The position numbers were made by a program, and so were the translations under genes. DNA of 64,000 nucleotides from Flavobacteriales bacterium (GTDB taxonomy: Bacteria > Bacteroidota > Bacteroidia > Flavobacteriales_E > Vicingaceae). Each line of letters begins with the position of its first letter. Positions within the stretch are counted from its first letter, which is position 1. The notes beneath the pieces were generated by a model. The model did no database searches, was not told the origin of the DNA, and saw nothing but the letters and a program-made list of their open reading frames with translations. The stretch covers positions 62,001-126,000 of the forward strand of contig JADYZM010000019.1 of the NCBI GenBank assembly GCA_020853105.1. Reading direction: 5' to 3'. Of the stretch, positions 29,594 to 36,784 are shown piece after piece.

Positions 29594-31135
29594 CTATTTA
29601 GCATAGTTAATGGATCTTTTTTCTCGAATAACGGTTACTTTAACTTGACCGGGATATGTCATTTCTGTTTGAATTTTTTGTGCTAAATCAAACGATAATG
29701 TATCAGCCTCTGCATCGCTTATTTTGTTACTCTCAACTATTACTCTCAATTCTCTACCGGCCTGAATTGCGTATGCTTGTTCAACACCCGGATAAGACAT
29801 ACCAATACCTTCAAGTTCTTTAATACGTTTGATATATGACTCCATAATCTCTCTTCTTGCACCCGGTCTTGCTCCAGAAATAGCATCGCAAACCTGAACT
29901 ATTGGAGAAATTAAAGTAGTCATTTCTATTTCATCATGATGGGCTCCAATTGCATTACATATTTCAGGTTTTTCATTGTATTTTTCAGCCATTTTCATTC
30001 CGAGAATAGCATGTGGCAATTCAGGATCTTCATCTGGAACCTTACCTATATCGTGTAGAAGCCCTGCTCTTTTAGCAACTTTTGCGTTTAAGCCTAGTTC
30101 AGATGCCATTGTTGCACACAAGTTAGCTACTTCTCTGGAGTGTTGCAATAAATTCTGACCGTAGGAAGAACGATATTTCATTCTACCAATCATTCGCATC
30201 AGTTCAGGGTGTAAACCATGTATTCCTAAGTCTATACAAGTTCTTTTTCCGACCTCAATTATTTCTTCTTCGAGTTGTTTTTTAGTTTTATTAACTACTT
30301 CTTCAATTCTAGCGGGGTGTATTCTTCCGTCTGTAACTAATTGATGCAATGAAAGTCTGGCAATTTCTCTTCTTACGGGGTCAAAACACGAAAGAATTAT
30401 GGCTTCCGGTGTATCATCAACTATTATTTCGACACCTGTTGCTGCTTCTAATGCTCTGATGTTTCTTCCCTCTCTTCCGATAATCCTTCCCTTGATTTCA
30501 TCGCTCTCTATGTTAAAAACAGAGACTGCATTTTCTACAATCTGCTCAGTTGCTACTCGTTGAATTGTTTGAACAACAATCTTTTTTGCCTCTTTGTTTG
30601 CATTAATCTTAGCCTCATCCATAATGTCTTTGATATGAGACATTGCTTCGGTTCTGGCTTCAGCTTTTAAAGCATCCATCAATTGATTCTTCGCCTCTTC
30701 TACACTAAGTCCGGAAATTACCTGAAGTTGCTCTACTTGTTTGCGGTGGGCTTTGTCAATTTCTGCCTCCTTTTTGGAAGTGTTTTCAATTTGATTGTTT
30801 AGTTGTTCTCTTGTTTTTTCAAGTTCCAACTCTTTACGTTTTACATCTTCTATTTGTTTAGAAGCTGCGTCGTTTCTTTGTTTTGCACGGTTTTCTAAAT
30901 CATTAATTTTTCTTTCTCGTTCAGTAATAACCTTTTCATGTTCTTCTTTCAGTTGAAGAAACTTTTCTTTTGCTTGTAGCAATTTTTCTTTTTTCTGAAC
31001 TTCACCTTCATTTTTTGCATCTTCTATAATTTGCTTGCTTTTTTTGTCAAGTCCTTTTCGATAAATGATGCTAACTATTACTGCAGCTATAGCTGCTCCA
31101 ATAATAACTCCGATTACAATACTTAATACATCCAT
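29594..31135 (-). CDS. rny: Ribonuclease Y
   Basis: 513-residue membrane-anchored endoribonuclease that initiates mRNA decay. One N-terminal membrane helix ([19 protein letters not shown]) is followed by a long coiled coil (about 30-190), a KH domain ([20 protein letters not shown] near 213-232) and an HD domain with [20 protein letters not shown] holding the catalytic His-Asp pair. Length and order are standard. Downstream is the bidirectional terminator. Upstream on the same strand lie the 6S RNA candidate and zapA. Confidence 0.97.
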
Positions 31136-31203
31136 TTTTAATTTTTTTTATTATTCAACTTTGGAAGTTGTTAACTTTTACTTAGTGTTCGGACATAAAA
31201 AAA

Positions 31204-31397
31204 CCCGTACAATATTGGCTTGGATAAACCCAAGAAATAATAACTGGAGCTGCCATGCATGGTCAAACTTCCCGCGTCTGCCTCGAATTAACGAAACAAA
31301 TTCTCCGAAGAGGTTACAAGGGGCCTGTTTTATTTAGCTTTGAGCTTTGCTCCAACTAAGTAAAGTGTTAGTTTATCAAACAAAAGAATTGTACGGG
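31204..31397 (-). ncRNA. ssrS: 6S RNA (SsrS) candidate
   Basis: The 337 nt between zapA and rny hold no credible protein gene but a structured RNA. The outer ends pair perfectly: CCCGTACAAT (31204-31213) with ATTGTACGGG (31388-31397), giving about 194 nt, the usual size of 6S RNA. Inside are a stem of CTGGAGC (31244-31250) with GCTCCAA (31349-31355) and a small hairpin CTTGG/CCAAG (31219-31223 with 31230-31234) between the outer and inner stems, as expected for a 6S central bubble. Position next to zapA is also the position of ssrS in gamma-proteobacteria. 6S RNA binds primary-sigma RNA polymerase. A different structured RNA cannot be excluded. Confidence 0.7.
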
Positions 31398-31472
31398 AAT
31401 ACCATTTTCAATAACTCGTAGTGTTTTTGAAAAAAATTCTGTAATTATATTGTCTAAAAAATTTAAAGAACG

Positions 31473-31757
31473 TTACAAATATTTGCTAAGGGCTTGGTCT
31501 ATCTCAGATAAACTTTCCTTTATTTGGGACTCTAAACCAATGTTTTGAACATTGGCTTGAGAATTTTTCGAAGTAAACTTTAATGCAACCATTGCTAATA
31601 AATCTTGATAATCTTTAACAGAATACAGACGTTCAAATTCAGCAATTGCCTTGTTTATCTCATCTGCAGCTTTTCTAACACCTTCTTCTTCTGTGGTGTT
31701 AACCGTTAACGGATACACTCGGTTTGCAATTTTTAATTTTATCGATAACTCTCCCAT
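31473..31757 (-). CDS. zapA: Cell division protein ZapA
   Basis: 94-residue ZapA, which bundles FtsZ filaments at the division ring. The N-terminal beta strand with the typical ELSIKLKIANRVYPLTVNTT is followed by EEEGVRKAADEINKAIAEFE and a C-terminal helix that dimerises. It stands 14 nt after a small coiled-coil gene of the same strand, with the 6S RNA candidate downstream; zapA next to a coiled-coil partner is common in Bacteroidota. Confidence 0.92.
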   Translation of the reverse strand: MGELSIKLKIANRVYPLTVNTTEEEGVRKAADEINKAIAEFERLYSVKDYQDLLAMVALKFTSKNSQANVQNIGLESQIKESLSEIDQALSKYL

Positions 31758-31771
31758 TTTTCAGGACTTAA

Positions 31772-32056
31772 CTATTTGTTAATTAGAGCAATACATTTAT
31801 CAATCTCCCGTACCATTTCGTTTATTTTCAACTTCACGTCTTTGGTACTTTCTTCGCCAACACTTTTAGAAATTTTTAAAATTTTAATTTTTCCTTCTAA
31901 TTCCTCTAACTGTTGGCTTTTCAAATTAAGTTGTTTTCTCGATTCTTCTATCTGTGATTTTAGTATATTGATTTGTTCTTCAGCAGCTTTATACTTTTCA
32001 GACAATCGTTCTGATTTGTGTTTTATTACTGCTATTAAATCAATTAAATCTTTCAT
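31772..32056 (-). CDS. Small coiled-coil protein upstream of zapA
   Basis: 94-residue protein consisting of an almost uninterrupted coiled coil (about 15-65: KHKSERLSEKYKAAEEQINI and onward, with leucine heptads) and a short helical C-terminus ending EMVREIDKCIALINK. No membrane segment. The ATG at 32056 is used (MKDLIDLIAVIKHKS); the TTG two codons earlier is superfluous. Its place just upstream of zapA, 14 nt apart, suggests a role in cell division, perhaps similar to ZapB, but sequence homology to ZapB is not evident. Confidence 0.7.
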   Translation of the reverse strand: MKDLIDLIAVIKHKSERLSEKYKAAEEQINILKSQIEESRKQLNLKSQQLEELEGKIKILKISKSVGEESTKDVKLKINEMVREIDKCIALINK

Positions 32057-32203
32057 CAACAATATGCTAAATTTTCAAAAAACTCAATTTTTACAAAGTT
32101 ACAATTTTTAAACACAACAATTGTGAATATTATTTTTAATTTTTTTCAAAACTCCAATAAAGTGAAAATAGTTTTGCAAGAAAAAAATTTCTAATACTAG
32201 TTG

Positions 32204-35015: not shown

Positions 35016-35080
35016 GATTTTTTAATCAAATGTAATGAATTTAAATTACTGTTAAAAAAGTACCTTCAACTATTTTAAAG

Positions 35081-35482
35081 TGGAGCCGGAGGGATTCGAA
35101 CCCTCGTCCAAACAAGGAATTAATAAGATTTCTTCATGCTTAGCTTTTATTCGATTGTTAGGTCAAAAACAAGCTAAAAGCTACCAATTTCTGACTTAAG
35201 CTTTAAAATTTTCGTCAATAAACCAAAGCAATTTATCAACTAGTTCAAAAGATGATACCTCATATTCAAGAATTAATGAACTGAACTCTTGAGAGATAAT
35301 GGTTCCGCACTACTGTTATTCATGCTGGAATTAAGGTTATCCGACTTGGTCGAGATTACGCAGCCATTGCATAGTTATTTTCGCCAGTTAGCGATTTGAG
35401 AGCCAATATTAACGAGCCAACTCACAATGCTCGACATGCTTACTTATCACTTCATCTTGATGTCAAAACCAAAAACGACCCC
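35081..35482 (-). ncRNA. ssrA: tmRNA (ssrA)
   Basis: Transfer-messenger RNA rescuing stalled ribosomes. In the minus sense the 3' end carries a T-arm GGGTTCGAATCCC and the acceptor strand CGGCTCC plus A at 35081; the 5' end is GGGGTCG at 35482, pairing with it over 7 bp (two wobbles). CCA is not encoded. The tag frame at 35385-35356 reads GGC GAA AAT AAC TAT GCA ATG GCT GCG TAA, i.e. GENNYAMAA, close to the GENNYALAA tag usual in flavobacteria. Length 402 nt is normal. Its T-arm could be mistaken for a tRNA gene. Confidence 0.96.
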
Positions 35483-35569
35483 AATATTTTCAAAGAACAA
35501 TACAAAATTACTTTTTTTAGTGTTAAAATACTTGCTTTATTTATTAATTTCGTCGCCAAGTATAACAAG

Positions 35570-36784
35570 ATGATTAAAATTGGTTTAATAAGAGAAGGGA
35601 AAAACCCACCGGATGAAAGAATACCTTTTTCTCCTGAACAAGTGCGTTATATTAATGTAAACTATCCCGATATTCAAGTTGTAGTTCAGACTAGTACTGT
35701 TCGAAGATTTAAAGACGAAGAATACATAAAACAAGGTGTTGAAGTTGTTGATAGTATTGAAGATTGTGATATTCTGATGGGTATTAAAGAAGTTCCAATC
35801 AATGATTTAATTGCAAATAAAACATACTACTTTTTTTCACATACAATTAAAAAGCAGATTTACAATAGAAAACTGTTGCAAGAATTAATTTCAAAAAAAA
35901 TTAAAATGGTTGACTATGAAACTTTGGTTGACCATAATGGTGCAAGGTTAATTGGGTTTGGTAAATACGCAGGCATTGTAGGTTGCTACAATTCGTTTTA
36001 TGCGTTCGGTCAACGCACCAAACAATTTGAGCTAAAAAGAGCCTATCAATGTAATGATAAAGCTGAAATGATTAAAGAAATGTCTAAAATCAAATTACCA
36101 AACAATTACAAAATAGTGATAACCGGTGGTGGAAGAGTTGCTTCAGGGATTTTAGAAATCTTAGACCATTTAAAAATTGAAAAAGTAAACCCTTCCGATT
36201 TTTTGACAAAGCAATACAACTATCCGGTTTTTACTCAACTTTTTCCTGACGACTACAATAAAAGAAAGGATAATCAACCTTTCACCCTACGAGAGTTTTA
36301 TGCAAATGCTTCAGGATTTGAGTCAAACTTCATGCAATATGCAAAAGTTTCAGACATGTATATCTCCGGGCATTTTTGGGGAAAGGGTTCTCCATTTATT
36401 ATTTCAAAAAATGACCTAAAGTCTCCTGACTTCAAAATAAAAGTTGTTGGAGACGTTAGCTGCGATATTGATGGACCAATTGCATGTACAATTAGACCTT
36501 CTAGCATTAAAGAGCCTTTATATGGTTATGATCCGACAACTGAAAAAGAAACAATAATTGACAACCCAAGCTCTATCACGGTAATGGCAATTGATAATTT
36601 GCCCTGTGAGTTACCAAAAGATGCTTCAATCAATTTTGGAAAAGAGTTTATCGAAAAAATATTACCTCATTTGATTAATGACAAAGAGAAAGTAATTGAA
36701 CGCGCTACCATCTGCAAAAACGGTGATTTAACTCCGCGTTATGAGTACCTTAGAGATTATGTAAATGGTGAAGTGAAAATATAA
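35570..36784 (+). CDS. NAD(P)-dependent oxidoreductase, alanine dehydrogenase/saccharopine dehydrogenase-like
   Basis: 404-residue cytosolic dehydrogenase. Begins MIKIGLIREGKNPPDERIPF, the N-terminal AlaDH/PNT/LYS1 catalytic domain (Arg and Lys pattern binding the substrate carboxylate), then VDYETLVDHNGARLIGFGKY near 115-134 and the Rossmann loop VITGGGRVASGILEIL near 180. The C-terminal part has VVGDVSCDIDGPIACTIR. The substrate is uncertain: alanine, saccharopine or another amino acid. An upstream in-frame extension from 35396 would run into the tmRNA gene and is rejected. The ATG at 35570 fits the family N-terminus. It stands alone on the plus strand. Confidence 0.82.
   Translation: MIKIGLIREGKNPPDERIPFSPEQVRYINVNYPDIQVVVQTSTVRRFKDEEYIKQGVEVVDSIEDCDILMGIKEVPINDLIANKTYYFFSHTIKKQIYNRKLLQELISKKIKMVDYETLVDHNGARLIGFGKYAGIVGCYNSFYAFGQRTKQFELKRAYQCNDKAEMIKEMSKIKLPNNYKIVITGGGRVASGILEILDHLKIEKVNPSDFLTKQYNYPVFTQLFPDDYNKRKDNQPFTLREFYANASGFESNFMQYAKVSDMYISGHFWGKGSPFIISKNDLKSPDFKIKVVGDVSCDIDGPIACTIRPSSIKEPLYGYDPTTEKETIIDNPSSITVMAIDNLPCELPKDASINFGKEFIEKILPHLINDKEKVIERATICKNGDLTPRYEYLRDYVNGEVKI

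Follow-up and report, generated by a model that had tools for sequence, protein, structure and literature searches.

6S RNA is an RNA decoy for RNA polymerase, and in E. coli its short product RNA (pRNA) arises from the strand made up of the 5' side of the central bubble and of the second stem, P2. The described systems closest to the locus considered here are families of this kind, together with the boxA elements of rRNA leaders. For 6S/SsrS (Rfam RF00013), passages of PMC7641849 describe the gene order zapB-zapA-ssrS in beta- and gamma-proteobacteria, and in the passages of PMC2245857 that mention ZapA and 6S their adjacency does not come up. A second family, 6S-Flavo (RF01685), is treated in passages of Weinberg 2010 (PMC2864571). 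A third, Bacteroidales-1 (RF01693), is annotated by Rfam as "6S-Bacteroidales RNA suggested". A 6S RNA with two pRNA classes is reported for Bacteroides thetaiotaomicron in passages of PMC7366714, which do not tie it to RF01693, and part of PMC9723704 reports 6S as detected in Flavobacterium psychrophilum.

The window, that is the whole stretch of 64,000 nucleotides that was analysed, carries between zapA and rny an RNA that is very probably a divergent 6S RNA gene of this Vicingaceae bacterium. The identification is made because the stems covary among relatives, because a covariance model built around this locus (R1) recovers known RF01685 and RF00013 loci, and because a broader model (R2) recovers Bacteroidales-1. 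The kind of RNA is already known; it is divergence that hides the window copy from the public models.

A structured RNA between zapA and rny

The gap between the two genes (31136–31472, 337 nt) is flanked on both sides by minus-strand genes. A sequence-only reading of the window had held that no protein gene fits there, and the sole open reading frame of at least 70 amino acids that enters the gap from outside is an antisense one over the start of rny (31065–31337, plus strand). It had also described a 194-nt element with a perfect 10-bp closing stem, an inner stem and a bubble, all of which can be recognized again in the arms of P1, which pair perfectly, and in P2 and the central bubble of the consensus folds (Table 1). 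The strand, which had been left open, can now be added, as the RNA runs on the minus strand from 31397 to 31204, like zapA and rny, lying 3' of the former and 5' of the latter, and its closing stem runs straight into seven U. The small open reading frame before zapA is kept there in relatives, and its sole Pfam match is a weak one to PF06810, under the cut-off of that family. The rny gene is closest to records from Vicingaceae/Flavobacteriales, the nearest metagenome-assembled genome being H5_BAC5, whose rny is 94% identical. About 3.7 kb from the 6S locus there is a tmRNA gene (35078–35482, minus strand; 135.9 bits to RF00023; tag peptide GENNYAMAA), the end of which is overlapped by an open reading frame on the opposite strand (35396–36784).

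Table 1. Positions of the RNA, its parts and the neighbouring features in the window
Feature	Position	Strand	Remarks
rny (RNase Y)	29594–31135	-	downstream gene; Pfam PF12072, PF01966, PF00013
Divergent 6S RNA (very probable)	31204–31397	-	R1 match 31197–31400, 178.4 bits (a training row of R1); mature part as suggested by the closing stem
U7 run after P1, terminator-like 3' end	31197–31203	-	sequence; U run kept in relatives
P1 (closing stem), 3' arm AUUGUACGGG	31204–31213	-	pairs with 31388–31397
P2 (second stem), 3' arm GGGUUUAUCCAAGC	31218–31231	-	helices 2 and 3 of A4
Central bubble, 3' strand	31232–31243	-	mostly unpaired in the consensus except a weak two-pair helix
P3, 3' arm GCUCCAG	31244–31250	-	A4 helix
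Conserved GGGAAGUUUGAC, terminal arm	31262–31273	-	pairs with AAAACAGGCC; A2, A4
Conserved AAAACAGGCC, terminal arm	31322–31331	-	largely invariant in A2
P3, 5' arm UUGGAGC, start of terminal arm	31349–31355	-	helix 4 of A4
Central bubble, 5' strand	31356–31369	-	unpaired between P2 and P3 in the consensus
P2 (second stem), 5' arm GUUUGAUAAACU	31370–31381	-	helices 2 and 3 of A4
P1 (closing stem), 5' arm CCCGUACAAU	31388–31397	-	perfect pairing with 31204–31213
boxA-like motif CGTTCTTTAAA	31462–31472	-	directly after the zapA stop
zapA	31473–31757	-	upstream gene; Pfam PF05164, E 1.1e-16
Small coiled-coil-like ORF before zapA	31772–32062	-	zapB-like by position only

The minus-strand fold reaches -57.3 kcal/mol (z -3.63), and none of 200 dinucleotide shuffles folds as well. 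In an alignment of 24 sequences made with MAFFT (A2), pair-keeping changes on both sides are seen in 19 of the 39 consensus pairs, and not one of 500 shuffles reaches any of five covariation measures; 96.6% of the cells are paired, against 88.8% in the shuffles, and sliding the partner lowers the figure to 25–52%. In A1, a set of 22 nearer sequences, 15 of 54 pairs show double-sided changes. A further set, A3, of 99 loci hand-chosen to thin close relatives, was dropped and remade with a stricter cut-off because antisense shadows had entered it (10 of 103 rows). The resulting A4 keeps 92 of the 99 loci, leaving out six RF01693 loci that R1 does not match (L132–L136 and L139) and one locus of 32.8 bits (L085). 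Among its 92 sense matches, 37 of the 39 pairs show double-sided changes and 93.4% of the cells are paired, compared with 73.1%; again none of 500 shuffles is as good. The pair counts lean towards the model, because the rows of A4 were fitted to R1. Helix 1 of A4, which is P1, has both-side changes in 9/9 modelled pairs and 97.3% of its cells paired, helix 4 (P3) has them in 5/5, and one CG pair of the conserved AAAACAGGCC is kept in all 92 rows. The sequence-only reading had staked its proposal on covariance support for the stems in relatives, and such support is found in A1, A2 and A4 alike.

R1 was built from A2 only, that is from 24 zapA-rny gap sequences, nearly all of one bacterial family and including no RF01685 hit. 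An RNA on the plus strand was considered and rejected, since its fold is less distinctive (z -2.09, with 7 of 200 shuffles as good), it has no U run, and R1 gives it 23.9 bits against 178.4 bits for the minus strand, where the window copy (L001) is itself one of the 24 training rows; the plus-strand match is a near-palindromic shadow of the model.

The consensus layout consists of P1, a short internal loop, P2, a bubble of about 14 + 12 nt and an interrupted terminal arm with AAAACAGGCC and GGGAAGUUUGAC. The closing stem, second stem, central bubble and interrupted terminal arm of the window RNA are what we take to be the 6S plan, and the consensus folds and the covariation agree on a closing stem, a central bubble, an interrupted terminal arm and a length of about 180–200 nt, as in the 6S class. 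By analogy, the central bubble would be the open-promoter mimic and the 5' arm of P2 would supply the template side for the pRNA. The RNA would then bind the RNA polymerase that carries the primary sigma factor, as an open-promoter decoy, and its release would come with the synthesis of a short product RNA, for which the strand of the 5' bubble and P2 would serve the polymerase as template.

Relation to the recognised 6S families

A scan of the window with Rfam returned nothing at the gathering cut-offs except the tmRNA. On the zapA-rny gap at E<=10 there was no 6S match, and the single match, to PhotoRC-I, reached 13 bits and was rejected as an identity, being taken as chance; a match to another RNA family, which would have spoken against the proposal of the sequence-only reading, amounts to this one chance-level hit. 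RF01685, RF01693 and RF00013 gave no match at E<=0.001 in the bacterium's own genome. RF01685 (gathering cut-off 85 bits) matched neither the own genome nor, at E<=10, this region of the window; RF01693 (60 bits) matched neither the genome nor the window, and RF00013 (46.4 bits) did not match the window at E<=10. The check that had been proposed, a search with RF00013 and RF01685, therefore failed to bring out the RNA, as neither model matches the window even at E<=10.

The connection becomes apparent when the search is run in the other direction. R1 finds each of the seven RF01685 hits in the class sample (E 1.2e-14 to 4e-6), only one of which is over the Rfam cut-off, and all 20 fetched RF00013 loci of the wider phylum (E 3.1e-8 to 0.002), mostly at the same zapA-rny position as the window RNA, without training on either group. 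These recoveries and the covariation uphold the earlier proposal of a 6S RNA candidate. R2 finds 5/5 over-cut-off RF01693 loci at the same coordinates, and R1 matches, weakly, four of the six Bacteroidales-1 loci given to it. RF00013 itself hits 42 of 296 phylum-sample genomes, in none of them over 46.4 bits, and none of 149 Bacteroidia genomes; at 30 of its 42 places a separately found R2 hit coincides with it, and at the remaining 12 the two do not conflict. Of 20 loci scanned, 10 have an RF01685 match under the cut-off that spans the whole model and falls on the zapA-rny gap (L016, L017, L047, L049, L052, L066, L070, L072, L085 and L090), the scores of most relatives being 27–36 bits and that of L085 being 49. 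In this way RF01685, RF01693 and the weak RF00013 hits are tied into one series, and a model anchored at this locus picks up 6S in genomes of Bacteroidia where those of Rfam fail. One of the loci just listed, L047 (genome G018), holds a shortened RNA of the same family at 1297–1463 (167 nt, 77 bits to R1).

The window RNA is nearest in setting to 6S-Flavo, six of whose seven hits are flanked by zapA and rny in the same orientation; in the family, the two share a P2 core of the UAAACUCAAC / GAGUUUA type. They differ in the start of the closing stem (GCCUAC in 6S-Flavo, CCCGUAC in the window RNA) and in length (about 160–180 nt in L095–L099 against 194 nt), and RF01685 does not match the window RNA. 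Bacteroidales-1 stands apart in gene order, as none of 10 examined RF01693 loci (L132–L139, L143 and L144) adjoins zapA or rny, although in two other genomes among the 13 hit (G057 and G206) the locus does. With 6S/SsrS the window RNA shares the layout and, by the passages of PMC7641849 on beta- and gamma-proteobacteria, a zapA gene directly upstream; the proteobacterial RNA has fau/ygfA as its downstream neighbour rather than rny, and the boxA-like motif upstream is a feature of the present locus.

The failure of RF00013 and RF01685 to match the window would also be expected of a structured small RNA that merely resembles 6S, such as a binder of core polymerase like the actinobacterial Ms1, which shows that a 6S-like shape can bind the core enzyme. 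Such a look-alike is very improbable in view of the homology to RF01685 and RF01693 and the agreement with RF00013 at 30 of its 42 places, to which may be added the 6S with pRNAs of B. thetaiotaomicron, not linked to RF01693 in those passages of PMC7366714.

Gene order and distribution

Homologs of the element occupy the corresponding position in relatives: of the 60 searched, 19 have a DNA match, which is nearly full-length in 15, counting the own genome. ZapA was found in 72 of 80 relatives searched. Among 76 loci, not all from different genomes, 74 allowed the gap behind zapA to be measured (two have no zapA match), and it was under 160 nt in 20 and 206 nt or longer in 54. Three of the long gaps are on contigs without an rny match, and one of 959 nt extends into rny, to which the match began late. 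Two long gaps (L058 and L075) have no such RNA by R1. In three genomes of the same family (G008, G013 and G022) the zapA-rny gap is always short, and an R1 search of G008 and G013 found no copy, from which it follows that the RNA has been lost, has moved or has diverged in some genomes. The RNA is missing from three gaps of 92–102 nt (L055, L061 and L067), which hold just a short stretch bearing a CCCG-type hairpin, with weak R1 matches of 15–17 bits in L055 and L061; these stretches look like remnants or replacement terminators.

Across the class, R1 hits were obtained in at least 74 of 295 genomes, the tallies of the large searches being lower bounds because only 6–8 candidates per genome were scored. 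A single hit lies in the own genome. In 56 of these 74 hits zapA lies directly upstream in the same orientation, in 53 rny lies downstream, and 18 have neither gene beside the RNA. The 20 fetched RF00013 loci all have rny downstream and a short open reading frame upstream, which proved to be a PF05164 ZapA in 7/7 cases tested. The order zapA-6S is common to different phyla, because it is found here in Bacteroidota and in the passages of PMC7641849 for beta- and gamma-proteobacteria, and the adjacency across phyla that the sequence-only reading had anticipated holds at the level of gene order. The adjacency is widespread in Bacteroidota. It may predate the split of the phyla, and the zapA-6S-rny order in Bacteroidota may have been reported earlier in the literature.

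A position after zapA in 56 of 74 hits, in 53 of them also before rny, together with the terminator-like U run at the end, would also suit a cis-acting structure, either a long 3'-UTR or terminator of zapA or a 5' leader of rny (e.g., for autoregulation of RNase Y), rather than a trans-acting RNA, and the three gaps that hold only a short hairpin-bearing stretch fit that idea. It is nevertheless highly unlikely, as 18 of 74 genomes have the same RNA at a site apart from both genes, a promoter-type box (TAnnTTTG) at the start of the RNA in 8 of those 18 copies fits a stand-alone gene, and the fold is 6S-like, with matches to a 6S model in other parts of the phylum.

The boxA-like motif and the expression of the RNA

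The boxA of rRNA leaders stands before an untranslated structured RNA and has a GTTCTTT core that is common to the motif found here, which differs from it in following a coding gene and in its next base, A in this family and G in the leaders. The motif presumably resembles the boxA of E. coli. In the form CGTTCTTTA (pattern G[TC]TC[AT]T[AT]) it occurs within 160 nt upstream of the RNA in 55 of 56 linked loci, with 3.8 expected, and in 2 of 18 unlinked copies, with 2.1 expected, the expectations coming from mononucleotide shuffles of the same upstream stretches, in which dinucleotides are not kept. The first pattern, G[TC]TCTTT[AG], had given 39 of 74, and it was widened post hoc after the misses had been inspected. 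The reverse distribution is seen for TAnnTTTG, described in passages of PMC7366714 as the -7 element of Bacteroidota: it stands 25 nt or less from the start of the RNA in none of 56 linked loci (0.5 expected) and in 8 of 18 unlinked ones (0.4 expected). Since members of one family cannot be treated as independent, the count was also made by family: all 14 linked families have the motif, and 4 of the 8 unlinked ones have the -7 box. This split of the linked and unlinked copies suggests two modes of expression, one of them by Nus-type anti-termination.

The own genome's 16S gene was not found in the assembly, and the leaders of relatives were used for this reason. Their core is that of the motif, with GTTCTTTG in 26 of 30 16S leaders of relatives and CGTTCTTTAAA in the window; of the other four leaders, one has GTTCATTG, two are cut to 36 and 138 nt, and one has none. 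A nusB gene is present in the genome. On this likeness, CGTTCTTTAAA is read as a putative boxA antitermination element. The two features do not always go together, as one genome (G040; L073/L110) has the RNA and no boxA, and a 219-nt gap in another (L063, G075) has a boxA-like start and no R1 match.

The motif follows the zapA stop at offset 1 in 32 of 49 cases and lies at a variable distance from the RNA, as might be expected if it were an RNA processing site or an element of the zapA 3' end instead of a boxA. The next gene encodes an endonuclease, and one family (f78) has a different conserved sequence, TTACATT, at that place. This reading is a substantial possibility that we would place appreciably below an even chance. 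Set against it are the same core in 26 of 30 16S leaders of relatives and the chance level of the motif in moved copies (2 of 18, 2.1 expected), as expected if it were needed only for read-through. The motif is in any case not an element of zapA or rny alone, because it is nearly absent (1 of 20) from short zapA-rny gaps without the RNA.

The zapA-linked RNA would have no promoter of its own and would be transcribed from the zapA operon. If the motif after the zapA stop is a boxA, as its sequence likeness suggests, it might allow a NusB/S10-type complex to carry the polymerase through the untranslated structured stretch. The 3' end of the RNA would be formed at the U run after the closing stem, and the 5' end would need processing. 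The broader proposal, put forward tentatively and at only a little under an even chance, is that in much of Bacteroidota 6S is a promoterless passenger of the zapA operon, expressed by boxA/Nus anti-termination followed by processing, that moved copies lost boxA and gained TAnnTTTG, and that the zapA-6S order may be older than the phylum split. If so, the output of 6S would be tied to a cell-division operon and to the rRNA anti-termination machinery. No report of boxA anti-termination as a mode of expression for 6S RNA was found in the literature searched. The boxA/promoter split provides a testable proposal for the expression of operon-embedded 6S and for its coordination with rRNA synthesis.

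Other sequences are also seen after zapA. Where Bacteroidia have GTTCTTTA, TTACATT follows the zapA stop in 14 loci (L313, L316, L317, L319, L321 and L324–L332), and in L322, one of the 20 fetched RF00013 loci, GTTCTTTGAAAA lies between the zapA-like open reading frame and the 6S hit.
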